DNA from: a virus
DNA length: 64,000 bases
Strand: one strand, 5' to 3'
Virus record (IMG/VR): IMGVR_UViG_3300048815_000026
Location: 1 to 64,000 of that record
The first letter of the stretch is position 1. Every line of letters begins with the position of its first letter. Positions 1 to 59,437 of the stretch are shown here, piece by piece. Position numbers and translations under genes: made by a program. The notes under the pieces were generated by a model. The model worked only from the letters and a program-made list of their open reading frames with translations. It ran no database searches and was not told the origin of the DNA.

Positions 1-1909
1 CGAAATAAGTGAACTGTTCACCATCGATCTGCACCATCCCGAAGGGAGCGACGTTCGATTCGTAGTAAGGCACAGGGTTGATGGAATTGGCCAGCGTGAT
101 GCTCGAGGGGCACGAGCTGGCACTGATGGCGGTGGCCAGATTTTGCGGACTGGTGCCGGCAAACCATTCCGCTTGCGTGTTGGTCGATCCCGCGGGCAGG
201 GCCGCCGAGAGTGTCAGCGGCGTCGCTCCGCCCGAGCAGCTTCCGGCGGCCGATGACACCGTAGCCGTGAACACGCTGGCCAGGTAGGGAAAGACAACCT
301 TTTGTCCCACTGTCGGCGCTGTCTCCGAGCTGGGCACGCACATCACAGCCGAGGCTGCGGTGATCGAGGCCACTCCGTTAAACGCTCCACTGCTGTTACT
401 GTTTGGCCCTTGGAACCATCCCGGAGCCAGAGGATTCGAGGACACACCGGTCTTTTGTGCGATAGGCCGGTACATCGCCGCTTTGGCGGTGGTTCCTGAA
501 TCGTTGACGAGCTGCCATGGCAGGGTCGCGTCGATGCGCGAGTCCACCAAAAACGTCAGGTCGTGAATGTGCGCTGCGCCCTGGTTGGCTCCCTGCGTCT
601 GGCTGGGATCGGGGCCGGCAAAGATATCTTCCCCCGGCATGCCGACAATCGAGGAGCTGACGCCCAGGCCGATGGGGCTCTGGCTGATCAGCGTCTGGGT
701 ATGGGTAAGGCAGTTGCCTTGAGGAAAGACGAGCGTGCCCCCTGACCCCACCACGCCCATGGTGTGCGCGATCGCGGCCGTGTCATCGTGCCCCAGGTCC
801 ATGTGGTGCGCAGTAGCCTGGGTAAAGGGCGCCGCGGTCGTGAGCACGCCATGGGTGGCGTCGGTGATGCTGGCGATCGCGGACTCAAACTGAGTCGGCA
901 CGCCGGAGACGGCGCCCACGGCGACGATCACCCGGCCCACATCTGCCGAACTGAGCGTGCCCCCGGTGAGCGAAACCGTGGTGCTGCCCTGGGTCAGGTT
1001 GCCATAGACCGAGCGGAGATCGCATTGCGCCCCGTCCTCGGTGACGCTGCGCGCCGTCGCCGGCACGTCATAGCGATTGTCCTGCACCCGGTAGTTGCCG
1101 GGATTCGTAAACGGCGTGCGCCCGGCGCCAGGCTGAATCACCGCCGAGCCATTGTGCGCGGCCGCGTTGGTCAGCGCCGTTTGCGGCGAGATGGTCGACG
1201 CTCCCGTGGTCGGCGCAGCGGCCACGAATTGGTACTCATCCACCGCCGCCGTGTTGGCTGCATTGTTCCCCAGGACATCGCCCTGCAGCGTGCCCAGGTT
1301 GCCCGCCGAGCCGCCCAGCGGCACCAGTACATACTGTGTGCCGTTCCACTGATACCAGTTGTAGGGCTGCGTGGTCACATCGACCAGGCCCAGATTAGTG
1401 CTCCCCTGCACCGTCGAGATGACCGTCGCAGCCACTCCGCCCGCGGCCGCAACCTGCTGGTACCACGCATTGTTGAGGACCACCGTATTCTTCGCCGGGT
1501 TGGTCAAGTTTTGCGTCAGCGCTTCCTGCAAGCCGCCGGTAGCTGAGGTCAACGAAAACGGCAGCTGGTGCGGATTGACAGGCGCGATCGAGATGGCGCA
1601 AGTGACATTGGTGTCGACGTAAGCCGTCGGCGTCACCGTTTCCGATAGCGAGGGATTCCCATCGACGATGCGCACCGGAGTTCCTGTATTGAAAGCAAAG
1701 AAATAGCTCGAGCCCCCCTGCACCCTGCACGATGTAGGCGCGAACGAGTAGGTGTTCGACGTGAACCCCGGCACCGTCCAGTTCCCATACTGAGAAGCGA
1801 TGATCTGCCCCTCGATGTTCTGTGCCTGCGCCAAGCGGCTGCAAGTAAGCAGCAGCCCGGCCACGCCCATCGCGATGACCAGCCAATCTAGAAACTTTAG
1901 TTTTTTCAA
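1..1909 (-). CDS. Secreted fibre/spike-like protein with QNxEGQ N-module (3' end off window)
   Basis: Begins at TTG 1909; TTGA overlaps the stop of the upstream gene (an in-frame ATG lies at 1870). At least 636 residues with no stop before base 1. Residues 1-28 look like a Sec signal peptide: KK start, hydrophobic run, then LAQA/QN. Residues ~29-190 carry the module also present in the proteins at 45032-47971 and 56429-59437 (motifs QNIEGQIIASQYG, GGLQEAL, NTVVLNNAWY, PYNWYQWNG). The rest is Gly/Ala/Ser/Thr-rich and beta-helix-like (LVFPQGNCL resembles the VPAGNYL strand of pectate-lyase-3 spikes). Function is inferred: tail spike/fibre or secreted glycan-binding protein. Confidence 0.8.
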   Translation of the reverse strand, partial: MKKLKFLDWLVIAMGVAGLLLTCSRLAQAQNIEGQIIASQYGNWTVPGFTSNTYSFAPTSCRVQGGSSYFFAFNTGTPVRIVDGNPSLSETVTPTAYVDTNVTCAISIAPVNPHQLPFSLTSATGGLQEALTQNLTNPAKNTVVLNNAWYQQVAAAGGVAATVISTVQGSTNLGLVDVTTQPYNWYQWNGTQYVLVPLGGSAGNLGTLQGDVLGNNAANTAAVDEYQFVAAAPTTGASTISPQTALTNAAAHNGSAVIQPGAGRTPFTNPGNYRVQDNRYDVPATARSVTEDGAQCDLRSVYGNLTQGSTTVSLTGGTLSSADVGRVIVAVGAVSGVPTQFESAIASITDATHGVLTTAAPFTQATAHHMDLGHDDTAAIAHTMGVVGSGGTLVFPQGNCLTHTQTLISQSPIGLGVSSSIVGMPGEDIFAGPDPSQTQGANQGAAHIHDLTFLVDSRIDATLPWQLVNDSGTTAKAAMYRPIAQKTGVSSNPLAPGWFQGPNSNSSGAFNGVASITAASAVMCVPSSETAPTVGQKVVFPYLASVFTATVSSAAGSCSGGATPLTLSAALPAGSTNTQAEWFAGTSPQNLATAISASSCPSSITLANSINPVPYYESNVAPFGMVQIDGEQFTYF

Positions 1910-2130
1910 AGGAACTTCAGACCCATCCGGTGCAGCCTTACGTGATACTTCGGGTCGATGACTTGGCCGGCAACAAACCCCTCCGGCAATGCGTTGAGCA
2001 CGATCATGATGGGGACAGCGCAGGCATCGCACCATCCCGGCCCCTTCGGATTACAAAGAAACGTCTGCTTCCGCTTCCCGCACCCCTGACATTTCGGAAG
2101 CGAGAAGTACCACCGGATCCGCGCGATCAA
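1906..2130 (-). CDS. Small zinc-ribbon protein
   Basis: 74 aa from TTG 2130, whose TTGA overlaps the stop of the 2127-3611 gene; an in-frame ATG at 2148 would add six residues. Four cysteines in CQGCG ... CNPK ... CDAC spacing suggest a zinc ribbon, followed by a hydrophobic stretch (VPIMIVLNAL). It sits between two fibre-like genes, with overlaps at both ends indicating coupled translation. No family recognised; a structural or assembly role is only a guess. Confidence 0.7.
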   Translation of the reverse strand: MIARIRWYFSLPKCQGCGKRKQTFLCNPKGPGWCDACAVPIMIVLNALPEGFVAGQVIDPKYHVRLHRMGLKFL

Positions 2131-3611
2131 GGATGCATCCCGATGCAATCGATCTCGGTCAGCGTGGTCGCCACAGCCTGGCTGGCCGTGCCGTTCTGAA
2201 TCGACAATTCAAACGTGGACGCCGTCTTATTCGAAAACATCAGCGCCGTGATGCCGCCGGCTCCGCCATCGTTCGGCGAGCAAACCACCGCATAGTTGTT
2301 GTCGGCGAACGGCACCGGCCAGGTCACGTCGAAGCTGCACTGCACCGCCGGACCAGTGCCGGTCGTGCAGATCCCGGAATTGATGATCAGCGGCTGAATC
2401 TTCGGAATAACATTGCCGCTGGTGGCCGCCGTCACGCGCCCATACGTATCCACGCTGATGTTCGAGTTAGTGTAGGATCCGGCCGTGACCCCGCTGGCCG
2501 CCAGGTCCACGTAATTCCAGTTCGACCCCGAGTTATTGGCCACCGCCAGCCGCGGCAGAAAGTTGATGATCGACTGCTGCGGAAGCAGCGACCCATTGGT
2601 GGCAACGTACTGGTTGTAAATCGTGGGCAGCGATCCGCACGAACCGGGCCCGAAATATGTCCCATTTGAAACCAGGCACTGCCCAATGGTGCCCGCGCCT
2701 CCACCCACCAAATAGCCCAGGTTGGTGTTGATGTACCCATTTTCAACATCGATCGGAAACGCCGGCGTCGACGTCCCCACCCCCAGCGCGCTCACGTTGA
2801 TCAGCGGATAGCCGGTCATGTTGAGCAGGCCGGAAATGCTCTGCGGCCCATGGTTCAGCGGCTGGGCAAAGATGGGCTGCGGGTAGATCACCACGCCGTT
2901 CCACAGCGGCGCGCCATTCGAGATATTCACTGTGCCCGAAAGCCCGCCATTTAGCTGCCACGCCTGCGGCCACCCGGGATAAGCATTGCCCGCGCTCGAG
3001 CTCAGCGAAACGTTGTAACCGCTGTATGGGATGATGGTGTCGTTGAAGGCGATCGAGCAAATCGTGGTGTTAACCGTGGGAATCGTCTCCCCCGTCGTCA
3101 CCGGCGTCTCATTCTGGACAAACGTGCCCGAGCCGACCGAATTGCCCTGCGCCGTTTCCGCCCCGCTCACCGTGCCCACATAGACGCGCATGCCGGCAGC
3201 GCCCGCGGGAATCGTCGCCGGCGGCGAAATGATCAGCGATCCCGTGCTCGTTAGCTGCACCTTCAGTTCCGGTGAAGCCAGCGTCTCCAGGTTGGTCGAG
3301 GTGTACCACGTGAAGACCACGTAGTAGATGCCCGCGGCCATGGTGCCCGAGCCGTACGTGATCGAAGTGCTGGGCAGCGTCAGAGGGTTGGGAATCCCCA
3401 CCACCGACCCGTCAAGCGAGGTGAAGCACTGCGCCGTGGTCGGCACCACCGCGCCCGTGCCCACAATCAGGCCGGCCTGCTGCAGATTGAAGCTGAGCGT
3501 GCCGTTGGCCACCGGCAACCCGCTCGGTCCCTGGAGTGTGCCTGTAATGGTGCCTGCGCAGGCGGGCAGGGCGGCAGAGATCAGCAACCACAACAGCGGC
3601 TTAAGCTTCAA
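2127..3611 (-). CDS. Secreted fibre-like protein
   Basis: 494 aa from TTG 3611, overlapping the end of the preceding gene by 11 nt. Residues 1-19 form a signal peptide (KLKPLLWLLISAALPACA/G). The mature start TGTLQGPSGLPVANGTLSF resembles a carboxypeptidase-regulatory or fibre beta-sandwich domain; then comes a Gly/Ser/Thr/Asn-rich body with PLINVSALGVGT and a C-terminal part beginning near PLIINSGICTTG that resembles the terminal beta-domain of phage fibres. Virion fibre is most likely, but the signal peptide is atypical for a virion protein. Confidence 0.75.
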   Translation of the reverse strand: MKLKPLLWLLISAALPACAGTITGTLQGPSGLPVANGTLSFNLQQAGLIVGTGAVVPTTAQCFTSLDGSVVGIPNPLTLPSTSITYGSGTMAAGIYYVVFTWYTSTNLETLASPELKVQLTSTGSLIISPPATIPAGAAGMRVYVGTVSGAETAQGNSVGSGTFVQNETPVTTGETIPTVNTTICSIAFNDTIIPYSGYNVSLSSSAGNAYPGWPQAWQLNGGLSGTVNISNGAPLWNGVVIYPQPIFAQPLNHGPQSISGLLNMTGYPLINVSALGVGTSTPAFPIDVENGYINTNLGYLVGGGAGTIGQCLVSNGTYFGPGSCGSLPTIYNQYVATNGSLLPQQSIINFLPRLAVANNSGSNWNYVDLAASGVTAGSYTNSNISVDTYGRVTAATSGNVIPKIQPLIINSGICTTGTGPAVQCSFDVTWPVPFADNNYAVVCSPNDGGAGGITALMFSNKTASTFELSIQNGTASQAVATTLTEIDCIGMHP

Positions 3612-13598: not shown

Positions 13599-14732
13599 AT
13601 GAGCACAGCCACCGTTACACAACTCACACCCGTCAAGTCGGAGATGTTTACCCACGCCGCTTACGATCCCGACACTTTCACCCTCACCGTCCGCTACCAC
13701 CCCACCAAGAGCAATGCCGCCGGGGCCACCTTCCAACACCTCAACATCTCGGAAGAACTGGCCGATGATTTCTTCAAGGCCGCCTCGCTGGGCAAATTCT
13801 TTCTCCAGCACATCAAGGGCAACCCCGACCACCCCAGCCACAAGATCCACGAAAGCGAACTGACGCCGGCCGCGGCGCTGCTCGACCAGCTGAAAGGCTC
13901 GCTCGCGGCGGCAAACCCGGAGCGTGCCGTCGTCAACCTCCAAGCAGTGAAGAAAGCAGTCGACCGCGCCCAGGAACAGGCTCGGGAAATTGCCGAAAAC
14001 GACGGAAGAACATTCGTCAACACCGCCGTCCCTGAAGTCTCCGCAGACCAGGACGAGATGAAGCTGCAGGCCCTCGAAGTGGCCACCCAGGTAAAAGCGC
14101 TGATCATCCAGACTGCCGATGACTACGCTATCGCCGGCAACGAACTGGTGCGCCTGCGCACTATGCGCAAACAGGCTCAGGAGCGCGTCAACCGCATCAA
14201 GCATCCTGCCTACGAAACCTACAAGGCGGCGCTGCAGCTGGAGCACGACGTCATGGAACCCTACCACCAGGCCGAGCAGTTCCTCGATGGCGGCATGGCC
14301 ACCTACCGCCAGCACGAGCGCCAGCAGCGCCTGCTCGCCGAGCAGGAGGAGAACCGCAGACGCCTCGAGGCCGCGGAGGCCGAAGCCAGGCGCAAAGCCG
14401 AAGAAGCCCGCGCTGAAGACCTCAAGACCGCGAAAGCCCAGGGCAATCTGGTGCAAGTGGCCGAACTCCTGCAACAGCCGCTGGAGTTGACTCCCATGCC
14501 CGTGCAAAGGGCGGTCCTGCCCACAGCCGTGCCCGCAGTCAAAGGCATCATTCAGCGGCCGCCGGAATGGCACTGGCGCGTGAAGCAGGGCGCAGAGCAC
14601 CTGATCCCCCGCGAGTACCTGGTGCTCAACGAGAAGGCCATCGGCGCCGCCGTGCGCACCCAGAAAGGCCTGACCAAAATCGCCGGCATTGAAGTCTGGT
14701 CCGAAGAGGCCAAGGTGGGAGTGAAAGCATGA
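13599..14732 (+). CDS. KTSC-domain protein with coiled coil
   Basis: 377 aa. Residues ~15-75 (AAYDPDTFTLTVRYHPTKSN, then LADDFFKAASLGKFFLQHIK) match the KTSC domain, a putative RNA/nucleotide-associated fold often joined to other domains in phages. Residues ~185-300 form a long coiled coil (ERQQRLLAEQEENRRRLEAA). The C-terminal ~70 residues include PPEWHWRVKQGAEHLIPREY, seen in phage proteins accompanying recombination nucleases. Precise role unknown; position suggests DNA repair/recombination. Overlaps the next start by ATGA. Confidence 0.72.
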   Translation: MSTATVTQLTPVKSEMFTHAAYDPDTFTLTVRYHPTKSNAAGATFQHLNISEELADDFFKAASLGKFFLQHIKGNPDHPSHKIHESELTPAAALLDQLKGSLAAANPERAVVNLQAVKKAVDRAQEQAREIAENDGRTFVNTAVPEVSADQDEMKLQALEVATQVKALIIQTADDYAIAGNELVRLRTMRKQAQERVNRIKHPAYETYKAALQLEHDVMEPYHQAEQFLDGGMATYRQHERQQRLLAEQEENRRRLEAAEAEARRKAEEARAEDLKTAKAQGNLVQVAELLQQPLELTPMPVQRAVLPTAVPAVKGIIQRPPEWHWRVKQGAEHLIPREYLVLNEKAIGAAVRTQKGLTKIAGIEVWSEEAKVGVKA

Positions 14733-17194: not shown

Positions 17195-17373
17195 AGATCC
17201 AAACCGTCACCATCGGACGCCTGTGTTCCAACAAGGGGTGCAAGCGTGTTGCCCGGCAGGCTCGCTGGTTCAACAACTTCTGGATCTCCTACTGCGACGA
17301 CTGCTGGGGAAAAGTCATCACGCTCGACATGGATAAGATCCCCACACCGCAGAAGGGAGCCGCAACCCTATGA
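17191..17373 (+). CDS. Small Cys-rich protein
   Basis: 60 aa; ATGA overlaps at both ends. Cysteines in LCSNKGCKR and YCDDCWG suggest a zinc ribbon with aromatic core (WFNNFWISY). Second of two adjacent tiny zinc-ribbon genes before the HNH nuclease. Confidence 0.64.
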   Translation: MKIQTVTIGRLCSNKGCKRVARQARWFNNFWISYCDDCWGKVITLDMDKIPTPQKGAATL

Positions 17374-45031: not shown

Positions 45032-47971
45032 CTACTGCGTGCATGAGTACCCCCAGATGTAAAGCGTCGAGGACGCCAGCGCCGACGACCCCGAAGTGAT
45101 CGCAAACGCCGTGTTCGAACCCACCGGCACATACGCCTGCCCGGCCCCGCTAAGCGCCGAAGCCGCGGCATTCGCCGGCCACAGCGAACACTTCGCCAGG
45201 GTCGCGTACGCCGTCCCAAACGTCCCCGTCGCAATGGTCGAGGACGCCGCCGGCGAACTCCCCGTGGTCACACTCAGATAGCCGGACACATCATTCGAAT
45301 TGGCATTCGCCGCCAGCGTGGGACCGGTCCCCGCACCGCTCCCCGCCGCCCAGGTGGGCACCGAAGCATACGTCCCCGCAGCCATGCCTCCAAGATGCTT
45401 GGCCTGCACCAGGCCCGTCACCGTGCTCTGCGGCTCCAGCACGCTCGACGCCTGCGTCATGTCGATGGTGATCGGGAACCCGCACCCGCCGTACTGGTTG
45501 AATGAAAAGCTCTCCGTCGACAGCGTCGGATACTGGTCCAGCCAGCCCACAGATTCCGTCTGCTGCGCCCCCGAAGCCCAGCATTTCGATTGGTAATAAA
45601 GCACCGCACCATTCACGTAACTGCCGCTGGTCGCCCCGGCGGTGGGCAGAAAGTAGTAGTTGGGCGGCACAAAGCTCTGGATCATGCCCCCATTGCGGAA
45701 CACCATCGAGTGCCCGGGATCGGTGTACGTGTAGGTGGTCGCCGCATTGGCCGCCGTCGGCCCCAGGTAGCCGGTCGCCGTCGCATAAGTGATCGCGATG
45801 TTCCACATCGAATGCGATCCGCTGGTCGACGCATCGTAAATCTGGCCGGTGAAGCTGGTGGCGTTGGTGTCATTCACATTGATATTCGTGAGGTTCACGA
45901 AGCCCACGGCTGTGTTGGCCAGGTAAACCGCGTCAATGCCCGTCGAAACCTGATTGACCGCATTGAAGGCGAGCCCGGTGCCTGTCAGCCGGTTGGTGTT
46001 CTGGTCATAGAGGCCATAGGTGCCCACGTCCGTGCATTTAATGGCATCCAGGTTGACCTCGTTGCCTTCGGTCTGCAAGCAGCCGGTGGTGTTGCCATTG
46101 CCCACGTCGTAGAAGACCAGGTTCGAGGCCTGGACGTCGTCATTCTGGTACTCCGCCATCTGCAGGCCCCAGCTGGAGACGTGGGTGGCTTCGATGTTCG
46201 AAAAGGCGATATGCGAAATCGGCCCCGATGGGTTGGTCCCCACATTGACGTAGAGAGCCTGGGCCGTGGCCACGTTGAGCGGATTGCTCCCGTATCCGGT
46301 GCCGTAGATGGCGCCGTTCGAAATGGCGACGCGATCAGGCCAGTGGGCAGTAGTGGTGCTGGGATCTTGCCCAACAAAAACGCTCTCCTTGGCGCTGCCC
46401 ACAATCGAGAAGCCGTCCACCGCCACGTTGCGGCAGGAATTCACCAGGATCCCTTCCAGGTCATTCGAACTGGTGATGTTCGCGGCCGTGATCTGCTCGC
46501 AGGGAATGGAGTGCGCGGTGTACTCGGAATCGAACCAGCTCACCTCGAAGCAGGCATCCTGGTTGTTCTGGCACGCCAGGCCATCGACCCGCAGATCCTG
46601 ATTGTTGATCATGAACGTGCCGTTAGCGTAGAAGTTCGAAACCTTCAGGTTCTTGATAGAGGTGTGAACTGAGCTCGCCAGCCGAAGTCCTGATAAGTCA
46701 CCGTTGTTGAGCGAGACATTCTCGATCCGGCAATTAGTGCAAGTCTCGATGTCGACCGCATAGCCGCTGGAACGGGTGGTGGCCGTAGGGGTAAAGGAGA
46801 CCGATAAATTTGCCAGCCCGAAGCCAGTCGCACCGGTCGACTGTAAGCAGTCCGCTGCGCCGACCGTGTTACAAGCCAGGCTCGAAGCAGGACCATCTCC
46901 CCAAATGAGTACATTGTTTGCGCCAGTAAGCACAGGGCCCGAGCTGTTGTTAAGCAGATAGTTTCCCGCAGGTACATAAACGCTCTTTCCCGTGGCGCTG
47001 GCCGCGGCCACCGCATTCTGCAACCCTGCGGTGTCCAGTGACAGATTCCCCCCGGTCGCCCCGAAATCTAGAATGGAAATCGAATCCTGCAGCTTGGAAG
47101 TGACCGTCCGCGTCACCGCCCCGCTGCCACCTTGGTTGTAATTCGCGCTGGCTGCATTATTCGCCACAAACTGATCAGTGGCCACATCGGTCGAGGTGTC
47201 TCCATTGCTCTGCGTCGTCGCCGTGGTGCTGTTCGGCAGCGCCGACGCCGCAGAAAGTGACCCGGCCGATCCGCTGGTGTTCGCGTTGGGCAGCGCGTAA
47301 TCCGTCCCAGGAGTCGCCGCCACTGACAGACCAGGCGACCCGCCGCCCTTCAGCACTAGCGTGGTGTTGGGAATCGTCGCCCCGCTCACATTCACCTGCT
47401 GGTACTGCGAACCGTTCCACGCATACGACGTGTACGGCGTCGTCGTGATATCGATCAGCCCCAGCGAACTGATCCCATGCACCGAAGCGATCACCGTCGC
47501 CGGGTTGCCCGGCTGCACCAGCCGATACCACTCCCAGTTGAGGATGATCGTATTGACGCCATTGTTCGTCTGGTTGGCCGTGATGGCCTCTTGCAGCCCG
47601 CCAGTGCCCGAGGTCAGGTAATAAGGGGGGACATGGGTATAGGTGGTGCTCATGTTCACGACGCAAGCCGTGATGTACACCGAACTGGGCGTGGCGATCT
47701 CCGTGTGCGCGGGGTTGCCATCGACAATCTTGATCGGGCGCCCCGCAGCAAACGCCGCAAAATTCTTGCCTCCACCGCTCACCTGGCAAGTGCCGGCAGG
47801 AAACTGAAAGCTCCCGATGTTCTGCCCCGGCACTTGAAACTCGCCATACTCCGCGGCAATCGGCTGCCCTTCGACATTCTGCGCCTGACAGCTGATCGCG
47901 AGCACAAACCCCGCCAGCACCAGCAACACTGCGAAAATCATGGCCCTGCGATGAAGTCTTTTCATTTTCAC
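45032..47971 (-). CDS. Tailspike-like protein with signal peptide and pectate-lyase-type beta-helix
   Basis: 979 aa. Signal peptide residues 1-30 (RRAMIFAVLLVLAGFVLAIS, CQA/QN). Shared N-module ~31-200 (QNVEGQPIAAEYGEFQVPG, GGLQEAIT, TPYTSYAWNGSQY). A pectate-lyase-3 entry at ~295-350 (ISILDFGATGGNLSLDTAGL, SVYVPAGNYLLN) and a long right-handed beta-helix. The C-terminal ~90 residues match the 56429-59437 protein (LWPANAA..AL.G, then Y.WGYSCTQ). Likely polysaccharide-binding or -degrading spike; the signal peptide raises the possibility of secretion. Confidence 0.8.
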   Translation of the reverse strand: MKMKRLHRRAMIFAVLLVLAGFVLAISCQAQNVEGQPIAAEYGEFQVPGQNIGSFQFPAGTCQVSGGGKNFAAFAAGRPIKIVDGNPAHTEIATPSSVYITACVVNMSTTYTHVPPYYLTSGTGGLQEAITANQTNNGVNTIILNWEWYRLVQPGNPATVIASVHGISSLGLIDITTTPYTSYAWNGSQYQQVNVSGATIPNTTLVLKGGGSPGLSVAATPGTDYALPNANTSGSAGSLSAASALPNSTTATTQSNGDTSTDVATDQFVANNAASANYNQGGSGAVTRTVTSKLQDSISILDFGATGGNLSLDTAGLQNAVAAASATGKSVYVPAGNYLLNNSSGPVLTGANNVLIWGDGPASSLACNTVGAADCLQSTGATGFGLANLSVSFTPTATTRSSGYAVDIETCTNCRIENVSLNNGDLSGLRLASSVHTSIKNLKVSNFYANGTFMINNQDLRVDGLACQNNQDACFEVSWFDSEYTAHSIPCEQITAANITSSNDLEGILVNSCRNVAVDGFSIVGSAKESVFVGQDPSTTTAHWPDRVAISNGAIYGTGYGSNPLNVATAQALYVNVGTNPSGPISHIAFSNIEATHVSSWGLQMAEYQNDDVQASNLVFYDVGNGNTTGCLQTEGNEVNLDAIKCTDVGTYGLYDQNTNRLTGTGLAFNAVNQVSTGIDAVYLANTAVGFVNLTNINVNDTNATSFTGQIYDASTSGSHSMWNIAITYATATGYLGPTAANAATTYTYTDPGHSMVFRNGGMIQSFVPPNYYFLPTAGATSGSYVNGAVLYYQSKCWASGAQQTESVGWLDQYPTLSTESFSFNQYGGCGFPITIDMTQASSVLEPQSTVTGLVQAKHLGGMAAGTYASVPTWAAGSGAGTGPTLAANANSNDVSGYLSVTTGSSPAASSTIATGTFGTAYATLAKCSLWPANAAASALSGAGQAYVPVGSNTAFAITSGSSALASSTLYIWGYSCTQ

Positions 47972-48027: not shown

Positions 48028-49314
48028 CTAGTTAAACGCCGGCACCTTCAACCCGGTGACCGAGGAAATCGCCTGTGGATTGTCGACCGCGTACTGCCGC
48101 GCATCCACGTAGTAGCATCCCTCGTTCGCCGTCGGATTGCCCGAGCTCGGATCATAGATTTGGAACACCCACTGTCCCGCCCGGTTCTTGAACCAGAACG
48201 GCGCCTTGCCCCAAACCACCTTCAACCACGAACCGAACTCCATGAAGTCGATCCTGGTCTGGTCGGCGTGAATGTTCCTCACCACCTCGCGGCCGGCAAT
48301 CTTGAACATGTTCTGGTTGGCTGCCACACCGTCATAGTTGCCGGTGAAGTTGCCGCTCCCAGACGTCCATTCCTGCCTGGCAAAGCCCATCTCCTCGTAC
48401 GCCTGGATCTGAGAAGGATGTGCATGCCATACCTGCGACTTCAGCGCGTCGGTGCCCAGCGACTGCTCTACGCGGGAAAGCGCAGCGCGAATCATCGGCA
48501 GCGACAACGGAGCGCCGCCCGCGGCCACACCGTTCGCCACTACATAGTTCTGCGTCCGGTTGATGCCCAGGTACGTGCCCGTGGTCGAGGTGTTGTGAAA
48601 GTATGGAATCCCGTACCAGAACACAGGAGTCGTCGCCGCCACGCCGGCCACCATGATGAAGTCCCCGGCCACCGTGCCCGAAGGAACCGCGTCTACCGTG
48701 ATCGACTGCGCCGAACCCAGCTTGTTGTTGACGTTGTTGACGTAGCAGGTGCCCCGCAGTGCGTAGGTGTTCGACATCACCTGCAGCTGCTGGCCCTGTC
48801 CGATCAGCCTGGCGCCCCACGGCGTCGACGTCAGGATGATCGGGTTGGCCCCGCCGCCGGCATAGCTGGCGTCCACCTGGGCAATCTTTCCATCGCCGGC
48901 TTGCTGCAGGAACTGATCGCGATTCTTTGCCATCTGCACTGCAACATCGGCCAGGGTCTTGGTCACCGGGTTTTCGGAAACTACCTTCGGCCCACCCTCA
49001 CCAATGATGTCCACCAGGCGCGAATACTCCACCGGGATGCAAATCGCCAGCGGCGTCAGCGTGCCCTGATCCCACTGCGAAAAGCTGCCCGTGGGAAGAA
49101 TGCCGCCATCCAGGTTGAACATGGCGACGTTGCCCGGGAAAGAGGTTTGGAAGCGCACACGAAAACTGCGCAAAGAAACCGGGGTGATCGAACCGCGCTC
49201 GGAAATCTTCGCATCCAAACGCGCTTCTTTTTCAATAAGCAGCTTGATGACCTCGTTCAAGGCCTCAAGCTGCAGCTGCTGTGTCGTTGACGCTGCACCA
49301 GTCACTGCGGCCAT
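48028..49314 (-). CDS. Major capsid protein
   Basis: 428 aa. N-terminal helix LQLEALNEVIKLLIEKEARL, SLRSFRVRFQTSFPGNVAMF, and the HK97-like elements: a spine helix region (NPVTKTLADVAVQMAKNRDQ) and a C-terminal beta segment ending FQIYDPSSGNPTANEGCYYV. Lies immediately downstream of scaffold and portal in transcription order, as expected. Capsid identity rests on synteny, size and pattern. Confidence 0.8.
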   Translation of the reverse strand: MAAVTGAASTTQQLQLEALNEVIKLLIEKEARLDAKISERGSITPVSLRSFRVRFQTSFPGNVAMFNLDGGILPTGSFSQWDQGTLTPLAICIPVEYSRLVDIIGEGGPKVVSENPVTKTLADVAVQMAKNRDQFLQQAGDGKIAQVDASYAGGGANPIILTSTPWGARLIGQGQQLQVMSNTYALRGTCYVNNVNNKLGSAQSITVDAVPSGTVAGDFIMVAGVAATTPVFWYGIPYFHNTSTTGTYLGINRTQNYVVANGVAAGGAPLSLPMIRAALSRVEQSLGTDALKSQVWHAHPSQIQAYEEMGFARQEWTSGSGNFTGNYDGVAANQNMFKIAGREVVRNIHADQTRIDFMEFGSWLKVVWGKAPFWFKNRAGQWVFQIYDPSSGNPTANEGCYYVDARQYAVDNPQAISSVTGLKVPAFN

Positions 49315-51355: not shown

Positions 51356-53968
51356 CTACTGCACACTCGTGGCATTGGCGGCAATCTCTTCCGCCTTGGC
51401 TCCCAAATTCGCTACTTCCGTCAACGCCGCTACTTGCCCCTGCACGCTCTCCCCAGGAGGCAACGCCGGCATCGCCCCAATCTGCATCAACTGCGCAATC
51501 GCTGGACCACTGGCCCGCCGAATCATCGCCAACTCGTTCGCCTGATCCGGCGACAACTGCGGCGGAGGCGGTGGCGGAGGCGTCGCCGCCACCTTCCCCG
51601 CACCCACAGCCGTGCCCTGCTGCTGCGCCTGCTGCGCCAGGTCCGCCGTCTGCATGGCCACCAGCTGCGTGTAGTAGGCCATCATGTTCGCCCAGCCATC
51701 CGGCACCTCGTCCTCCAGGTCGAAATTCTTCTGCGCGTACTGCTTCACCGTCTTCCTGGCTACATCGAAGTCGTCCGTCTGCTTGGGCATGATCGACGGC
51801 AGCATCACTCCAGTCGGCTGGCCGGTCTGCGGATCCATCTGCGGAATCGGCTCCGCCTGCAGCAGCTGCGCAATAATCTGCCGCACCTTCACTCGCATCG
51901 CCTGGCCCGGAACCACCATCCCAGGAACCCCAATCGATGCCGCCGCCTGCTCCATGTTTTCGGGATCGTCAAACACCGCCTGCGCCACGGGATTCTTCTC
52001 CGCCGCGTTCAGCAGATCCATCCACCGCTGCCGCAACTCCGCCGCCGTGACCGGTAAACCCTGGTCAGTGTCCGAGTAAGCACGCACGCTGCCCTGCAAA
52101 TCATCCAACTTGACATACTCGTTCCTAAACTCCGACCCCTGGTCCTCCACTACCTTGCGCATGTCCTCCGTCAAGTTGTCCTTGGCGCAGTTCACCGCCA
52201 GCATGTCCGCCTCGGCATGCTCATCCTTCAGGTTTTCCCAGTAGATATTCAGCTTGCCCAGCGCCGTGTTCAGCTGCTGCTGCTGCCCGCCAAAGGTCTC
52301 GATCGACGGATCGCCCTCGCCTCCATACAGCTGCGGTGGCACCCCGGCAAACATCTGCGCATTGAAGGCCTGGTTCTTCTGGTACTCCATCGCCTCCTGA
52401 ATCTTCAGCTCGATCTCGAACTGCCACAGCGCATCCTGCAGCCGCTGCGAACCCGGAGGCCCCGTCTTCTTCAACTTCACCGGGTTCAGAATCCCCGGCA
52501 GCAACGGCTTGCCTTGAAACGCCTTCGACCCGATCAGATCCTCGTTGGCCAGCAACAGCCCGCAGAACCCGCGGTCAATGCCCTCCTGCAAGATGTTCGA
52601 CAGGTCGTTGTACTTCTTCTGGAACGGCACCACCACGTCACCCGGGGTCGGCGGATACATGCCAAACTTCTCGTGCGTCCCCGCCCATGTCCACTCCTTC
52701 GTCAGCGACGCTTCGCGCGCATTCAGGAACGTCTGCCCCGTCGAAACCAGCAACATCCCCGAAGGGAACATTGCCCGCATCCGGTCCCCAAACGCCTTGT
52801 CGTTCTCGATATCCCACGCCCAAGGCTGAATCCAGGTCCGCGACAGCGTCGGCTTCTGGTCGTTCAGAATCGAAATCTGCCCGTCCGTCTGCGAGTACGT
52901 TTGCTGCCGCGCAATCCGATCAATGGTTCCGTTGGCCGAGAGCTCCGACGTTGCCGAAGCCTGGATCTGGTCATACATCCCCGGGTAAGCCGCTCGTAGC
53001 GCCCCAACATGCACCTCCACCTCGAGATTTAGGATGGGCGTCTGCCGCAGCTTCTGCGCCGTGGGATCCACATCGATCTCCAGCGGCGAATACAAATCCT
53101 GCGCCACCATCCCCTGCGGCACTTCCTGCGTGCCCACCTGGCGCACCACCGGCCCACTCACCGCTGGATAGAACGAATCCTCGCCCATCCCGGCGCCGCA
53201 GTTAGGGCAAGCCAGGTTGCCTACCGCCGGCGTGATTCCGGTCGCATCGGGAGAACTATCCGTCCCGCAACCATGGCAATGCATCCGCGCCGGCATGATC
53301 TCCGTCTCGGTAGCATTGAAGATCGGCTCCGGCTTGGTCCCCCAGCGCTCCTCGCTCACCAGGTAGCGCGTGTGCCGAAACGCCGCGCCCATGGCCCAGA
53401 AGTAAAGCAGCTGCGCCTTCAACAGCGACGCCTCGCCGTTCTGCTGCTCCACAATGTCGATCAGCGTTTGCGCCGCCTTGGCCGTGGTCGTATCAGCCAG
53501 CTGGTCGGCATCCCGCGGCATCCACTTCGATTTCGGCACCTGCGGACACAACGCGGCCACAAACCCCGTGGCCAGCATCTGGTAAAAGTTGTTGCAGTAG
53601 CGATAGAGGTCAGTGTCGTCGGCGTCCTCCGCATGCCCATTCCCACCGCCAAAGCCCACCCAGTCGAAGGCATCGGAGAACTGCGCCGTCCCCGGCCCAA
53701 AGCTGATGTACTGGTTGCCCTTGAAGAACTCCATGTTCTCCGAGCACCGCTGCATCAAAATCAGCCGGTTTTGCGACCACTGATCTTTGTACTGGCGCAC
53801 CACTCCGATGCACCGCTGCTGATCCTCTTCGCTCAGCTGCCCGCTATTCTGCGGCTCGTTCGCCGTGCCCACCATGGGATCGGAGGGAGTATGCTCCTGG
53901 CCCTGCTGCGGAGGCGTCTGTGGGAACAATTGCGATGTCTGGGTCAGATCAAGTCCGGCTGTCGCCAA
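51356..53968 (-). CDS. Portal protein (large, podovirus-type)
   Basis: 870 aa from TTG 53968 (AAGGAAACAGG upstream). NRLILMQRCSENMEFFKGNQ and RYCNNFYQMLATGFVAALCP open the portal fold; FEIELKIQEAMEYQKNQAFN lies in the stem/wing helices; a Pro-run and helical tail (ATPPPPPPPQLSPDQ) follow. A zinc-ribbon insertion, CHGCG near ~237 and CPNCG near ~262, is atypical. Forms the dodecameric DNA channel where terminase and adaptors dock. Size, order and helices support the call. Confidence 0.8.
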   Translation of the reverse strand: MATAGLDLTQTSQLFPQTPPQQGQEHTPSDPMVGTANEPQNSGQLSEEDQQRCIGVVRQYKDQWSQNRLILMQRCSENMEFFKGNQYISFGPGTAQFSDAFDWVGFGGGNGHAEDADDTDLYRYCNNFYQMLATGFVAALCPQVPKSKWMPRDADQLADTTTAKAAQTLIDIVEQQNGEASLLKAQLLYFWAMGAAFRHTRYLVSEERWGTKPEPIFNATETEIMPARMHCHGCGTDSSPDATGITPAVGNLACPNCGAGMGEDSFYPAVSGPVVRQVGTQEVPQGMVAQDLYSPLEIDVDPTAQKLRQTPILNLEVEVHVGALRAAYPGMYDQIQASATSELSANGTIDRIARQQTYSQTDGQISILNDQKPTLSRTWIQPWAWDIENDKAFGDRMRAMFPSGMLLVSTGQTFLNAREASLTKEWTWAGTHEKFGMYPPTPGDVVVPFQKKYNDLSNILQEGIDRGFCGLLLANEDLIGSKAFQGKPLLPGILNPVKLKKTGPPGSQRLQDALWQFEIELKIQEAMEYQKNQAFNAQMFAGVPPQLYGGEGDPSIETFGGQQQQLNTALGKLNIYWENLKDEHAEADMLAVNCAKDNLTEDMRKVVEDQGSEFRNEYVKLDDLQGSVRAYSDTDQGLPVTAAELRQRWMDLLNAAEKNPVAQAVFDDPENMEQAAASIGVPGMVVPGQAMRVKVRQIIAQLLQAEPIPQMDPQTGQPTGVMLPSIMPKQTDDFDVARKTVKQYAQKNFDLEDEVPDGWANMMAYYTQLVAMQTADLAQQAQQQGTAVGAGKVAATPPPPPPPQLSPDQANELAMIRRASGPAIAQLMQIGAMPALPPGESVQGQVAALTEVANLGAKAEEIAANATSVQ

Positions 53969-53969
53969 G

Positions 53970-54386
53970 CTATGCCTGTTTCCTTCCCTGTTTCACGCCG
54001 TTTTCCTCAGCTTCTGCAAACATCGCAGCAAGTTTAGGGTTTTCCGGCTCGCCCTCGGCCACCCACTTCACCGTCGGACCCACCTTCGCCTTGTTGTGCT
54101 CCCGCCAATTCCGCCGCGTGAGCGCTTCGGCCAGCTTCGACGGCCGCCGCTTCAACGCCAGCAACCGCTGAATCACCGACTCCGCATCCTTCTCCGGATC
54201 CGGCTCCGGCTCCTGTTCCGCTACCTCGATCTCTGCCGGCGGCTGATGAAACAGCGGCCCGCCCAGGCCAATCGCGCCCAGGCGGTCATAGACCACCTTC
54301 CGCTCCTCCCGCATCTCGGCAATCTGCGCCTGCAACAGCGACACAATCACCTCGTGCATGGATCGCGAAACCCAAGGCCACTTCAC
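53970..54386 (-). CDS. Hypothetical protein upstream of portal
   Basis: 138 aa from GTG 54386 (TAGTG overlap; TTG 54395 or ATG 54359 possible). Coiled coil at the start (VIVSLLQAQIAEMREERKVV), an acidic middle (EVAEQEPEPDPEKDAESVIQ) and a basic end. Could be a terminase or portal accessory; unrecognised. Confidence 0.62.
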   Translation of the reverse strand: MKWPWVSRSMHEVIVSLLQAQIAEMREERKVVYDRLGAIGLGGPLFHQPPAEIEVAEQEPEPDPEKDAESVIQRLLALKRRPSKLAEALTRRNWREHNKAKVGPTVKWVAEGEPENPKLAAMFAEAEENGVKQGRKQA

Positions 54387-55294
54387 TAGTTGCAAGTCAC
54401 CGAGAACACGTAAGCGGTCGAAGCCGTCGGCGCGGCCGCCACGGCAAAGGTCGCAACCCCGCCCGAGGAGCTAAAGGTGATCGCGCCGGTGAATGCGTTC
54501 GCCCCAATGCTCTGCGGAAGCGTGCAGTTCACCGCCCGGCTCAACGCCGGCGCCGTCACCGTCTCCGTGAACAGCGTCCCCGTGGTGGTCGCCGTCCCCG
54601 TGGTCACATTCGCAACCATCACGTTTCCATTGGACCCGGAAGCATTCGACACCGTCGGCGACGTGCCCGCGGCCGCGCCTGCGGCGATCGTCGGCACCGC
54701 CGTGCCCAGAATCGAGTAGCTCGAGACGTAGTGCGTCCCATTCCACCCATAAGCCACCTCCGGCGCGAAGTTCACCGCCGAGATATCGGTGTTGGCGTTG
54801 CCGGCCGCGGAGTAGATGATCGTCGACGTCCCACCCGCCTGGAACCAATTCGTGTCCAGAAGCACGGTGTTGATCTGGTTGCTCAGCACCGAGGCATTGA
54901 GCGCCTCCTGCAGCCCATAGGTGCCCGACTGGAAGAAATAGGGCGAGGTGTGCGCATTGCTGGTGGTCAGCGTGGCCGTGCAGCCGCCGTTGGTGATGCT
55001 GGTCGGCGTGATGATCTCATCCACCGCCGCATTGCCCGGGTCGACAACCTTGATCGGCGTCGAGGCCACAAACACCGGGATGTTCGGCGCCCCGCCAGCC
55101 GCATAGCTGCAAGGGTTGACCGAAACCACGTTCGCGCCGGCCACCAGGTTGGTGTTGCTGTACGGCCCCGACTGCGGCAAGGCGTGCCAGTTGTTGAACT
55201 GCGAAGCCACAAACTGGTGCGTGATCGACTGCGCATGACCGGCCGCGGCCGCCACGCACAGAGCTGCGAGAACAATCTTCCGAATCATGTGCAT
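54386..55294 (-). CDS. Secreted fibre-like protein, divergent member of the N-module family
   Basis: 302 aa. Signal peptide ~1-22 (IRKIVLAALCVAAAAGHAQ). Motifs FVASQFNNWHALPQ, TPIKVVDPGNAAVDE, SGTYGLQEAL, NTVLLDTNWF and VAYGWNGTHYV align with the longer spike proteins, so it is a minimal version: N-module plus a C-terminal beta domain (AFTGAITFSSSGGVATFAVA) and no beta-helix. May be a secreted competitor or a short fibre. Confidence 0.72.
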   Translation of the reverse strand: MHMIRKIVLAALCVAAAAGHAQSITHQFVASQFNNWHALPQSGPYSNTNLVAGANVVSVNPCSYAAGGAPNIPVFVASTPIKVVDPGNAAVDEIITPTSITNGGCTATLTTSNAHTSPYFFQSGTYGLQEALNASVLSNQINTVLLDTNWFQAGGTSTIIYSAAGNANTDISAVNFAPEVAYGWNGTHYVSSYSILGTAVPTIAAGAAAGTSPTVSNASGSNGNVMVANVTTGTATTTGTLFTETVTAPALSRAVNCTLPQSIGANAFTGAITFSSSGGVATFAVAAAPTASTAYVFSVTCN

Positions 55295-55331: not shown

Positions 55332-56453
55332 TTACCGAGTGACGTTCATCTGCCAATTGACATAGTCGACGTACATGAGGTTGCTCGAAGCGGTGCCCCC
55401 GGTCGCGCTCCAGGACATCAGCATCGCTGAGCTGGTGATGCTCGCAAGCGCCGTCTTGCACGCAGTCGCCTCCGTCCCGTTGATGTACCAGTGAACATAG
55501 GTGCCATCGTTGTGCAGAGACAGGCGGACGAAGGTCGCGGCAGTGGCTCCGATCGTCGAGTCAGTCAAGGTGCCGGCATTGTTGCAATACCAGTCGTTCG
55601 GCGTGCCGTTGGCCGAGGAAAGATCGAAGCTGACGGTAGCCACCCATGGGCTGGCTGCCTCCTGCAAAACCAATCCCGCCTGATACTGGCCCGCAGTCGT
55701 GCCGGGGAGCACCACCACGTCAACATCCGTCTCATAGGTCCAGAGCGGCGTCGCGCCGTTGCCAATGATGGACCTCTGCAGGGTGTTGCTGATCGAACAA
55801 GCCTCGCCCGTGTTTGAACTCGCTGTCCCGGAGGCCACCGATAAGAGCCCCGGGTGATTCGCATTCGTGTTTGGGGTCAAAATTGAACATCCAGCGGCCG
55901 TGGGAGAGCCGATAGCATTGCCGCTGATGTCTGCAGTGGAGTAAAAGTCGTTCCAGTAGGTGCTGTAGGGTCCGGCCGAAATCGACTGCGAGTAAAACGC
56001 CGGCGCCGTCTGCGCCGCGGTGAACGCCGTGGTATTTGCCGGGATGCTCGCGACCACATTCGCCGTCGTCGCCACCTGCGTCGTATTGGTCCCTGCGCTC
56101 GCGGTCGGCGCCGTGGGCGTCCCGGTCAGCGCCGGCGAAGCCAGAGGCGCCGCCCCTGTCACCTCCCCCACCGAATAATCTCCCGAGTTCGCCACCACAT
56201 CGCCGGTGCGCGTAAACACTGAAGTTACCGGAGCCGACGCGCTGCACGACGCCGGTGCCCATGCCGTGCCGTTATAAACCAGGCAGTAGTTCGTGGTGGG
56301 CAGGGTGGCCGACACGGGCACACTCTGCAGTGCCGTCGCGTTGCCCGTAGATACCCCCGGCACACCCCCAGGCCCCGTCTGCTGGCCAAACGCCATCGCG
56401 CCGCTCAGCACCGCCATCAGAACGCAAATTACTGCGTACATCCGTACCCCCAT
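55332..56453 (-). CDS. Tail-fibre-like protein with signal peptide and lectin-like domain
   Basis: 373 aa from ATG 56453 (ATG 56441 possible), overlapping the previous gene by 25 nt. Signal peptide YAVICVLMAVLSGAMAFGQ. Then a fibre linker typical of phages (VFTRTGDVVANSGDYSVGEV, ALTGTPTAPTASAGTNTTQV) and a C-terminal LamG/jelly-roll-like domain (NHPGLLSVASGTAS, VRLSLHNDGTYVHWYINGTE). Clear fibre architecture joined to an export signal, which is unusual. Confidence 0.78.
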   Translation of the reverse strand: MGVRMYAVICVLMAVLSGAMAFGQQTGPGGVPGVSTGNATALQSVPVSATLPTTNYCLVYNGTAWAPASCSASAPVTSVFTRTGDVVANSGDYSVGEVTGAAPLASPALTGTPTAPTASAGTNTTQVATTANVVASIPANTTAFTAAQTAPAFYSQSISAGPYSTYWNDFYSTADISGNAIGSPTAAGCSILTPNTNANHPGLLSVASGTASSNTGEACSISNTLQRSIIGNGATPLWTYETDVDVVVLPGTTAGQYQAGLVLQEAASPWVATVSFDLSSANGTPNDWYCNNAGTLTDSTIGATAATFVRLSLHNDGTYVHWYINGTEATACKTALASITSSAMLMSWSATGGTASSNLMYVDYVNWQMNVTR

Positions 56454-59437
56454 TCGTAAGCCGTTGCCCCCGCGAGCGCGGTCGCTCCCGCGCGGGCCGC
56501 GGCGGTGGTTCCCCCGGTGTCGATGTCAGCGGGAAAGATCTGCACCCCGGCCGTTCCCGTCAGAGCCTGCGTCGCGGCGTTGGCCGGCCACAGCCAGCAC
56601 TTCGGCCCAGGGAAGCTGTACGGCTGGTTGAAGGTGATGGTGAAGACGATGGCCGAAGCGGTCGGACTCGCTCCGGTGGTGAGCGTGATGTATCCGGTTA
56701 GATCGCTCCCAAACGCGACAACCGCAGGACCGGTGGGGCTGGTGCCCGCGCCTGTCCCGGCAGCCGCCGTGGGTCCGCTTGGTACGCTCGAGCCGATGTG
56801 ATACCCGCTCAGTAGAGCGCTCACTGACACCTGCTGCTGGAAGCTGAAGATGCATTGACTTGGGCAGGGGTAGATGAGGAAGTTGTCGGCAATGGCCGGG
56901 TTCGAGCCGGTGCCGACAGTCGTCCAGTTGAAGGCGGTCGAGAGCTGGTGCGTGCTCCCATTCCAATAGCTGACTTGAGGCCCGAAGCTGTTGGCGGGGG
57001 TGCCGAAGTTCGCCCCGCTGGTCGCGGTCCCGGTCGGAGGGATGAACAGCGTCGAGGGAGTGAAGTTGGTGACGTTGAGCGTGCCCACGTTGAGCGTCGA
57101 GGAAACGTAATCGCCCATCGTCTCCCCGCATGTCACGTCATTGCCCAGCACGGAAAGCCCCGCCGGCACCTTGGCCGCGTAGTCGGACGGGGACACAATC
57201 GGACCCGTGGGCGTCAGAAACTCATGCCAGTCGACCGGTTCGCCCCCGCCCGGATTGGCCGAGCACAGCGATCCGGACGCTCCGATGGTGACCGCCCGCA
57301 GCACGGTCGGCGCCGGAGTGAAGCAGTACGTCGACGATCCCGGCAGCAGGCGATCCCCGCCGATATAGGCGTTGGTGCCCTCAAACGACGTGCCCTCCGC
57401 GTCGAATGGCTGGGTAACGATGAACCCGCATCCCCCAACATCGTCAATCTCCGTGGCCACCAGGTGTATGCCGCCAGTGGTGACGACGCCGTTGAACACT
57501 ACGGAGGGATGGAAATGGATAAACGTATCGTTGCCCCCGCCCCCCTGGAATGCGGCGATGCTGCCGTCGTAGGAGACGACGTCTTTCGCCGTCGAGTCCG
57601 AAGCGTTCATGATCATGCCGTAGTTCACATTCGGCGTCTGGTAAACCTGTACGCCGATGACCCCGCTGCAGGTGGCTCCCGTGCCTGCCCCGGGCGTGAT
57701 CGCCGTGACCGCATGGCCTACGATGGTCACTGTCGGGGGATCCGGCATCGTTCCGCAGGGCGTATTGTGCGCGCCCCCACGGCTGCCCTGCAGCGCGACC
57801 ACGGTCAACTCCACGCTGCCGGCGTAGGTGTTGTAGCAATCGCCACCGCTGTTGACGGTGTACGACGTGATTGCCCCGCCCACCACGTTCGCGGTGAAGG
57901 TTCCGCAATTCTGAGTGCCAGAGTCGGGGTATACCCCGATGTTGATGTCGGTGGGGAAGACCTGGAAAGCGTCACCGCCGAAGTGGCCAAACTCCAGGAC
58001 GTGGTCCGCGCCTGGCTGCACATGGCCCACGGCTAGCTGGCGAAAATAACTCTGCCCCAGGGTGCCCAACTCGATGATCGCGGACGCCACTCCCCCACCA
58101 TCGAGCGTCATGTTGTCGATGTCCATCGACGTGAAGTTCGCGCCCCCGGTCGGCCGGTTGAAGAGGGGGATGTTCGCCGTCCCGCCGTAGACGATATACG
58201 TGCAGCCCGACCCGCAGCCGCGCGCGCTCACCGAAAATTCGTCATCGAAACTGTTGCCGTCGACCGGCTGCCAGAAGCTGAGGTTCGACGTATAGTGCCC
58301 CGCCCCGAACTCGATCATCGCACTCTGGTGGTTCTCCGACATGTACGCGACGGCGAAGTACCACGCGCAGTCGGCATTGGTCGAGGCCAGCGCGTGCGCG
58401 GTGTTCACCGGCAGGGGATACCAGACCCCCGAAAACGTGCCCGGGATGGTGGTGTGGTTGGTTGCGTTGAGCGCGATGTATGCGTTGCCGCTGTACGTCA
58501 CCACCTGGCACTCCGGGAAGTCGGTCGACGGGCTGCTGAAGGCGATGGGCGCGACGCCTACCCCGCCGTACGAGCTGAAGCCATCGACAAAGAAAACCTT
58601 GTTCGCGAAGTTGGTGTTGAAGGACGTGAAGAACGTGTTGTCGAGCGGCTGCTGCACATACTGTGTCGCCGGCGGGAACTGGTTCACGCTGTTCTGTGCG
58701 TGCACGTAGGCGTCGGTGGCCACCTTGGTCGAGGCGTCGCTGGGCGTCTGACTCACTGCCGCCGTGTTCGCGGGCAGATTGAGGGTGGCCGCCGCCTGGC
58801 CGGCGTTCCCGCTGGTCACCAACACGCCGCCCGTCGCCGGGATCGCCGCGCCCGTCCCCTGAGAAACATACTGCGAACCATTCCACCCGTACGCCGTATA
58901 TGGCGTCGTGGTCACATCCACCAGCCCTAGACTCGTGCTGCCATGCACCGAGGCAATCACCGTCGCCGCCGACTGCGGAGCGATCAGCCCATACCACTCA
59001 CTATTCAAAATCACCGTGTTCGGGCCGCCGGCCTTCACCTGCCCATTGTTCAGCGCTTCCTGCAAACCGCCCGTGCCCGACGTTAGATAGAAGGGCAGCG
59101 CATGAATGTACGTGGTCGCCATCGACACTGCGCACTGGCTGATGAACACCGCGGAAGGCGTCTGAAACTCGTTCAACGCTGGATTCGAATCGACAATCTT
59201 GACCGGCACGCCGGCCGTGAAGGCCGCAAAGTTCTTCCCCCCACCCACCACCTGGCACGTCGACGGCTCAAACTGCAGGCTCCCCACCGCAATGCCCGGT
59301 ACCTGGAACTCGCCAAACTGGCTGGCAACAATCTGGCCCTCGACATTCTGCGCCTGCAGATGCGAAGCGCAAAACACGAGGGCCAGTCCCACCAGCAAGC
59401 GACGCAGCAACCTAGTCGAACTCCGTGACGCGCACAA
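56429..59437 (-). CDS. Tailspike-like protein with signal peptide
   Basis: 1002 aa from TTG 59437 (TTG 59407 possible). Signal peptide LLRRLLVGLALVFCASHLQA/Q, N-module (QNVEGQIVASQFGEFQVPG, GGLQEALN, TPYTAYGWNGSQY), then a long beta-helix-type middle with VDGFSSYGGVGVAPIAFSSP, SMDIDNMTLDGGGVASAIIE and GGAITSYTVNSGGDCYNTYA. C-terminal ~90 residues match the 45032-47971 protein. Depolymerase or receptor-binding role inferred. Confidence 0.78.
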   Translation of the reverse strand: MCASRSSTRLLRRLLVGLALVFCASHLQAQNVEGQIVASQFGEFQVPGIAVGSLQFEPSTCQVVGGGKNFAAFTAGVPVKIVDSNPALNEFQTPSAVFISQCAVSMATTYIHALPFYLTSGTGGLQEALNNGQVKAGGPNTVILNSEWYGLIAPQSAATVIASVHGSTSLGLVDVTTTPYTAYGWNGSQYVSQGTGAAIPATGGVLVTSGNAGQAAATLNLPANTAAVSQTPSDASTKVATDAYVHAQNSVNQFPPATQYVQQPLDNTFFTSFNTNFANKVFFVDGFSSYGGVGVAPIAFSSPSTDFPECQVVTYSGNAYIALNATNHTTIPGTFSGVWYPLPVNTAHALASTNADCAWYFAVAYMSENHQSAMIEFGAGHYTSNLSFWQPVDGNSFDDEFSVSARGCGSGCTYIVYGGTANIPLFNRPTGGANFTSMDIDNMTLDGGGVASAIIELGTLGQSYFRQLAVGHVQPGADHVLEFGHFGGDAFQVFPTDINIGVYPDSGTQNCGTFTANVVGGAITSYTVNSGGDCYNTYAGSVELTVVALQGSRGGAHNTPCGTMPDPPTVTIVGHAVTAITPGAGTGATCSGVIGVQVYQTPNVNYGMIMNASDSTAKDVVSYDGSIAAFQGGGGNDTFIHFHPSVVFNGVVTTGGIHLVATEIDDVGGCGFIVTQPFDAEGTSFEGTNAYIGGDRLLPGSSTYCFTPAPTVLRAVTIGASGSLCSANPGGGEPVDWHEFLTPTGPIVSPSDYAAKVPAGLSVLGNDVTCGETMGDYVSSTLNVGTLNVTNFTPSTLFIPPTGTATSGANFGTPANSFGPQVSYWNGSTHQLSTAFNWTTVGTGSNPAIADNFLIYPCPSQCIFSFQQQVSVSALLSGYHIGSSVPSGPTAAAGTGAGTSPTGPAVVAFGSDLTGYITLTTGASPTASAIVFTITFNQPYSFPGPKCWLWPANAATQALTGTAGVQIFPADIDTGGTTAAARAGATALAGATAYEWGYGCTQ

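Follow-up and report, generated by a model that had tools for sequence, protein, structure and literature searches.

Predicted Sec-Type Signal Peptides on the Spike- and Fiber-Like Proteins of a Tailed Phage Suggest a Possible Route to the Virion via the Periplasm

All seven of the spike- and fiber-like proteins encoded by the viral genome analyzed in the present study begin with a predicted Sec-type signal peptide (SP), and it is very probable that those of the window are exported. The explanation that we favor, by a slight balance of judgment, is that these proteins are Sec pre-proteins that would be exported, processed, and oxidized in the periplasm and then joined to the heads at lysis. 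The window, i.e., the whole stretch of DNA that was analyzed (64,000 nucleotides), corresponds to positions 1-64,000 of a virus record of 69,310 bases. The two ends of this record carry an exact 127-bp direct repeat (window 1-127, identical to record 69184-69310), which indicates a complete circular or circularly permuted genome of approximately 69.18 kb.

An earlier note on this DNA described six fiber- or spike-like ORFs with export signals, and all six were confirmed at the positions given there, on the minus strand, each opening with a basic n-region that leads into a hydrophobic core and a small-x-small site and each positive with our own rule-based predictor (not SignalP). The gene for the spike-like protein A (1-1909) starts with TTG at 1909, encodes the SP MKKLKFLDWLVIAMGVAGLLLTCSRLAQA↓QN (↓, predicted cut) at 1823-1909 and a domain shared with D, E, and G (the N-domain) at 1328-1822, and spans the record join; it is cut only by the arbitrary start of the record and continues from 69310 to 66311. 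Directly downstream of A lies a seventh SP-positive protein, H, which was absent from the earlier list; its gene (62154-66314, minus strand) runs past the window end, its ATG at 66314 overlaps the A stop, its SP is MKFNGKNPLDWLVLLLAVFGSGLAISRAQA↓QN, and its C-terminal part in the window (62154-64000) contains Big_2 Ig-like domains. The fiber-like protein B (2127-3611; SP 3555-3611, ..PACA↓GTITG) showed a weak match to the Gp53-like_C tail-fiber C-terminus, below the Pfam cut-off; in most divergent relatives, a homologue of B lies next to a spike with the N-domain. The tailspike-like protein D (45032-47971) has its SP at 47882-47971 (..SCQA↓QN), the N-domain at 47399-47881, and a predicted right-handed beta-helix at approximately 45662-47089, while E (54386-55294; SP 55232-55294, ..GHA↓QS; N-domain 54725-55231) is a short member with a short C-terminal part. 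The fiber-like protein F (55332-56453; SP approximately 56385-56453, ..MAFG↓QQ or MA↓FG) matched PHROG tail-fiber families at residues 89-139 (1e-10), and the spike-like protein G (56429-59437) has its SP at 59351-59437 (..HLQA↓QN) and the N-domain at 58865-59350. Family searches including PHROG gave no tail-family match for A, D, E, or G, and no peptidoglycan hydrolase family was found in the SP proteins by family search, i.e., they are not of the SAR endolysin type.

Regarding the reliability of the predictions, the rule, which we wrote ourselves, requires a basic n-region, a 9-residue hydrophobic core, a small-x-small site, and no transmembrane stretch thereafter. For its calibration, two E. 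coli K-12 regions of 50 kb each were used, in which 20/22 exported, 3/53 cytosolic, and 4/16 inner-membrane proteins were positive, with class labels that we take to be correct. In the record, the rule was positive for 7/7 fiber/spike-like proteins versus 1/27 other ORFs (Fisher P 1.5e-6), the single exception being p161, which had the lowest score (3.29). Spurious ORFs overlapping real genes were positive at a rate of 3/106, and control phages at a total of 4/82 (crAss001 1/22, B124-14 1/20, N4 2/15, T7 0/14, and P22 0/11); none of these four is annotated as a fiber, spike, or other structural protein, and they include an N-acetylmuramidase of N4. No transmembrane stretch (hydrophobic 19-mer above 1.5) was detected in the mature SP proteins, and, thus, they appear to be soluble and exported rather than anchored. 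A conserved lipobox cysteine at +1 was not found, with some SPII calls by rule and with mostly A↓Q or A/G↓G sites among D and B homologues. The predicted signal peptides held up in all of the sequence tests that could be applied; export is well supported, and actual translocation and cleavage are inferred.

A domain of approximately 165 aa is common to A, D, E, and G and begins right after the predicted cut. An alignment search identified relatives of this N-domain at 32 viral loci and one bacterial-genome locus. INPHARED contained no homologue of the N-domain, F, or the major head protein (MCP) and only weak partial matches to B, and no relatives of F or of gp12 of the phage Tunturi_1 were found in viral_contigs. 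Once six loci that duplicated contigs already counted, repeated sequences, and frames cut at the locus start had been removed, 44 of the 49 distinct N-domain copies with an N-terminus were SP-positive by rule, and a hydrophobic leader was still visible by eye in the other five. The small-x-small↓Q motif was kept at the domain border in 47/49, and the sequence of the hydrophobic core was variable. Under a narrower start rule, an earlier count gave 37/42 for the N-domain, 14/19 for homologues of B, 1/7 for those of the scaffold, and 2/16 for those of p121; the five B misses still counted there comprised three loci with no usable start in the 60 codons scanned (L027, L028, and L037) and two partial matches to a different protein (L052/L053). 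Homologues of the putative portal (0/18), MCP (0/4), and p141 (0/14) showed no SP.

The trait was conserved across phages with N-domains of approximately 30% identity, the homologues mostly start with ATG, and the order of the cassette is kept in distant relatives, with B beside an N-domain spike followed by p121, p141, portal, scaffold, and MCP. The combination, in four paralogues, of one N-domain with differing C-terminal parts resembles an anchor in the virion that carries interchangeable tips. The AlphaFold2 model of the domain had a pLDDT of 91, and its best match in fold comparisons by VIA was 7w1c_C (Z 8.2, rmsd 2.1, 69 aligned), followed by the phage tail-tip protein 8vjh_B (Z 7.2, rmsd 2.0, 71 aligned), both covering residues 13-93 only; among the best rows, which covered half of the domain, barrels of phage depolymerase and tail-tip type were mixed with those of EF-Tu. 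Foldseek returned no match for the N-domain below E 0.001.

The middle part of D was modeled as a right-handed beta-helix with a pLDDT of approximately 70-86 over much of the helix (whole-model mean 53), and VIA matched approximately residues 265-740 to phi29 gp12 (Z 23.2-23.4) and to the Sf6/HK620 tailspikes (19-22), so that D is predicted to be a tailspike-type beta-helix. Other fold neighbors were polysaccharide lyases, epimerases (AlgE), and galacturonases, and the Z scores for tailspikes and related enzymes together ranged over 19-24. The match of D to PF13229 (3e-5) was below the cut-off, and searches of solved structures with the G and D sequences gave no real match. The two cysteines of the N-domain were invariant in 50/50 copies read, as were 16/16 cysteine columns of the D family in 11 sequences. 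Mature SP proteins contained 191 cysteines in 9,963 residues (1.92%), with an even count in 11/12, compared with 95 in 12,379 (0.77%) for 16 SP-less phage proteins used as fiber controls, some of which had been chosen on size or annotation alone. The periplasm, and not the cytoplasm, is where disulfides form. The cysteine pattern is as expected from selection for disulfides, and the invariant pair together with the even counts suggests folding in an oxidizing compartment.

The minus strand carries the head, tail, and lysis genes, among which the terminase large subunit (26367-27932; phrog_979, 4e-41), the major head protein (48028-49314; phrog_14242, 3e-4), the putative portal (51356-53968; no family match), and a PG_binding_3 endolysin (61097-61639; 5e-11, with GH108 at 0.003, below the cut-off) all lack an SP. 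The portal and scaffold labels were given by position, size, and conservation. A small protein (61643-62128, minus strand) has a C-terminal transmembrane stretch and a weak SP score and may be holin-like. The only large low-K+R protein of the virion region without an SP is a 365-aa fiber-like or adaptor candidate (36872-37969, minus strand), which is conserved in the prophage described below. A 1369-aa protein (28652-32761), which lies beside other internal-virion candidates, showed a weak match to Zeta_toxin (0.006, below the cut-off) and a strong C-terminal match to phrog_21 (1e-63), and is possibly an ejected multi-domain protein. The putative portal contains zinc-ribbon-like CxxC pairs, as does a 326-aa protein of the virion region (42636-43616; weak Zn_ribbon_3), and the early region encodes a KTSC domain protein, two HNH homing-type endonucleases, and a DnaJ-domain protein (13599-14732, 17370-17906, 19277-20101, and 20678-21217).

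The bacterial-genome relative of the N-domain was located on an 87-kb contig from an Acidobacteriaceae MAG, in which the whole structural block sits between chromosomal genes on both sides, indicating a prophage. One flank carries enolase-like, phosphorylase, permease, and outer-membrane barrel genes, and Fic, patatin, and DsbH-type thioredoxin genes are also among the chromosomal neighbors. Judging from this relative, the window phage probably infects soil bacteria of the Acidobacteriota, a diderm phylum. A search of 396 genomes of the phylum gave one strong N-domain match, i.e., the prophage, and two weak matches.

Cultured viruses of Acidobacteriota, Tunturi 1-5, have been described (PMC11924767), and passages of that description make no mention of signal peptides; Tunturi_1 and Tunturi_2 are podoviruses. 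Our comparison covered Tunturi_1 to Tunturi_4. In Tunturi_1, 6/42 tested proteins were SP-positive, namely, gp12, gp13, gp14 (annotated as a tail spike), gp16, gp17 (annotated as a virion structural protein), and the lipoprotein gp43, and the same set was positive in Tunturi_2 (6/31), in which gp14 is annotated as a pectin lyase. Similar to the window proteins, gp12-gp14 and gp17 of both phages have a Sec-type SP, an A↓Q or A↓T site, low K+R, and, in the large proteins, even numbers of mature cysteines; however, their sequences have no detectable homology to the window proteins. In Tunturi_1, the cuts are predicted after residue 19 of gp12, residue 28 of gp14, and residue 18 of gp17. The trait therefore occurs in phages that are unrelated, Tunturi_1 having given no match to any window protein. 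An Acidobacteria-wide habit or a GC artifact was rejected because Tunturi_3, from the same host strain, was 0/35 and Tunturi_4 was 1/39 with a non-fiber protein. Low K+R provides no support for export: it was rejected as an export mark because the SP-less fibers of Tunturi_3 share it (gp15, 1.0%) and because exported proteins of the MAG host have a median of 9.4% (n=13). A resemblance by eye between the mature N-terminus of B and Tunturi_3 gp15 was also dropped after a profile search found nothing. The gp43 lipoprotein (L063, 39529-39912) has a clean lipobox and is a possible outer spanin or exclusion factor.

In the Myxococcus phage Mx8, 2/20 tested proteins were SP-positive, p64 (PHROG tail-fiber families, 4e-5) and p66. 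The mature start of p64, TRNSVGTYTLPGGNPVV, matched a protein of BUCT555 (58% over 47 residues, E 1e-7) that starts with MPRNGSGTYLLPTGINPVV and lacks an SP, the shared fiber N-terminus beginning at its residue 3, and an SP-less protein of a Bradyrhizobium phage also matched (E 3e-7). In Mx8 p64 and Mx9 p14, the predicted SP precedes a fiber N-terminus that lacks one in two other phages, and p64 is the clearest sign of an SP apparently added before, or lost from, an ordinary fiber. As in the window, the SP stands before a tail-fiber protein; unlike the window, only a single fiber with another N-domain is involved, and SP-less homologues exist. Two genes after this fiber, p66 (L085, 38169-38822) is a 217-aa protein with an SP, seven cysteines, and no family match. 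In P-SSP7, 1/19 proteins was positive, p44, a small protein of this cyanophage that belongs to phrog_650 and has an evident SP (L087, 38376-38738).

The explanation that we favor may be outlined as follows. Tail spikes and fibers would be synthesized as Sec pre-proteins and exported to the periplasm during infection, where signal peptidase I would cut at small-x-small↓Q and where folding and disulfide bonding would take place, while short-tailed, DNA-packed heads would be built in the cytoplasm without spikes. Holin, endolysin, and envelope failure would then mix both pools, and the spikes would attach via their N-terminal domains, such that receptor-binding maturation would be completed at or after lysis. 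If the SP proteins are the spikes, and there is no other large candidate save the SP-less 365-aa protein, their encounter with the heads must take place beyond the cytoplasm, most simply at lysis. Fiber attachment is late and self-driven in several phages (P22, T4), and the P22 tailspike joins tail-less heads in vitro. The near-exclusive occurrence of predicted SPs on fiber/spike-like proteins, the position of the N-domain always directly after the SP, and the adjacency of N-domain spikes to the putative portal, scaffold, and MCP in relatives argue for this explanation, as do the beta-helix predicted for D, the cysteine pattern, and the SPs of the Tunturi_1/2 and Mx8/Mx9 proteins. Against it, receptor binding could in truth be the task of the 365-aa protein, the Mx8 record does not label p64 as virion structural, and 0/18 tested MS/MS-supported structural proteins of the crAss-like phage phi14:2 were SP-positive, which provides no mass spectrometry precedent; moreover, five N-domain copies and five B homologues were missed by the rule. 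On the whole, attachment to the virion after export may be judged marginally probable.

The earlier note had offered three options for these proteins, i.e., secretion during infection, assembly outside, and a hydrophobic N-terminus retained as an anchor in the particle. This interpretation is partly supported: secretion and assembly outside were both rightly named, and the evidence favors export followed by attachment outside the cytoplasm. The main rival is that the proteins are free, non-virion enzymes, decoys, or exclusion factors. Free enzymes or decoys, which would degrade exopolysaccharide around the dying cell or bind receptors on debris and thereby free the progeny, appear doubtful, although they fit the conserved SPs equally well and are in keeping with the enzymes among the fold neighbors of D, the pectin lyase annotation in Tunturi_2, and the missing virion label of Mx8 p64. 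This rival is weaker only because it leaves the virion nearly spike-less, all large spike candidates of the window phage and Tunturi_1 having an SP and almost no receptor-binding protein remaining, and because p64-type fibers keep the N-terminus of ordinary fibers; the N-domain common to four paralogues beside head genes also speaks against it.

It is unlikely that the proteins are exclusion factors of the surface or periplasm that would block superinfection and be expressed from the prophage as well. The prophage state of the relative is compatible with such a role, and known exported phage proteins such as Lom (PMC12309495) act at the host surface; however, the window proteins include large modular beta-helix proteins in a late gene block, B and D homologues have no conserved lipobox, and the mature parts of the window proteins have no transmembrane stretch. 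The anchor option is disfavored and highly unlikely: five of the 49 N-domain members miss a rule-perfect cleavage site, whereas 47 carry small-x-small↓Q immediately ahead of the conserved domain and behind a core of variable sequence, several exported proteins of the MAG host have A↓Q sites too, mature parts are without a transmembrane stretch, and the predicted cut in Mx8/Mx9 leaves an N-terminus where the SP-less homologues start. The probability that the pattern is an artifact, due either to wrong gene calls or to hydrophobic leaders or start codons that arose by chance because the genome is rich in GC, is negligible in spite of TTG starts in three window genes (A, B, and G), given the chance rate among spurious ORFs, the mostly ATG starts of homologues, and conservation both across divergent phages and in annotated cultured ones.

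In a broader sense, we tentatively propose, at somewhat less than even confidence, a two-compartment assembly in which receptor-binding proteins would be matured in the periplasm by host Sec, signal peptidase, and the disulfide machinery and the virion would become infectious only once lysis mixes the pools; phages infecting Acidobacteriota and Myxococcus may have arrived at this on at least three occasions, at least once by the grafting of an SP onto an ordinary fiber gene. Tailed-phage assembly is taught as wholly cytoplasmic, a picture that Sec-routed tail spikes, if true, would break; they would also account for the making of disulfide-rich spikes and present post-lysis fiber attachment as an evolved strategy. 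Cultured test systems are available in Tunturi_1/2 versus Tunturi_3, with and without the trait on one strain, and in Mx8 on its genetically tractable host.

Among known systems, the coat proteins of filamentous phages, such as M13 pIII, are virion proteins with a cleaved Sec signal (PMC8310372). M13 pIII differs in that it belongs to an inovirus assembled at the membrane and has a C-terminal membrane anchor, whereas the window represents a tailed dsDNA phage with mature parts lacking a transmembrane stretch. Lom, an outer-membrane barrel (PMC12309495), and SAR endolysins share with the window proteins the use of host Sec export. The N4 gp61-type endolysin was also caught by our rule; however, it is a lysis enzyme, and the endolysin of the window phage has no SP. 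In the literature searched, the coverage of which excluded most subscription papers, no report of SP-bearing tail spikes was found. By our rule, the P22 gp9 tailspike has no SP, and the Sf6 and HK620 tailspikes and phi29 gp12 are not known to have one. These tailspikes resemble D in the predicted beta-helix, the modular N-terminal anchor with a variable tip, and the place among virion genes; in contrast, the window spikes have a predicted SP, an N-domain absent from INPHARED, and many conserved cysteines. Taken together, tailspikes are a known kind of protein, and the predicted export route represents the new feature.
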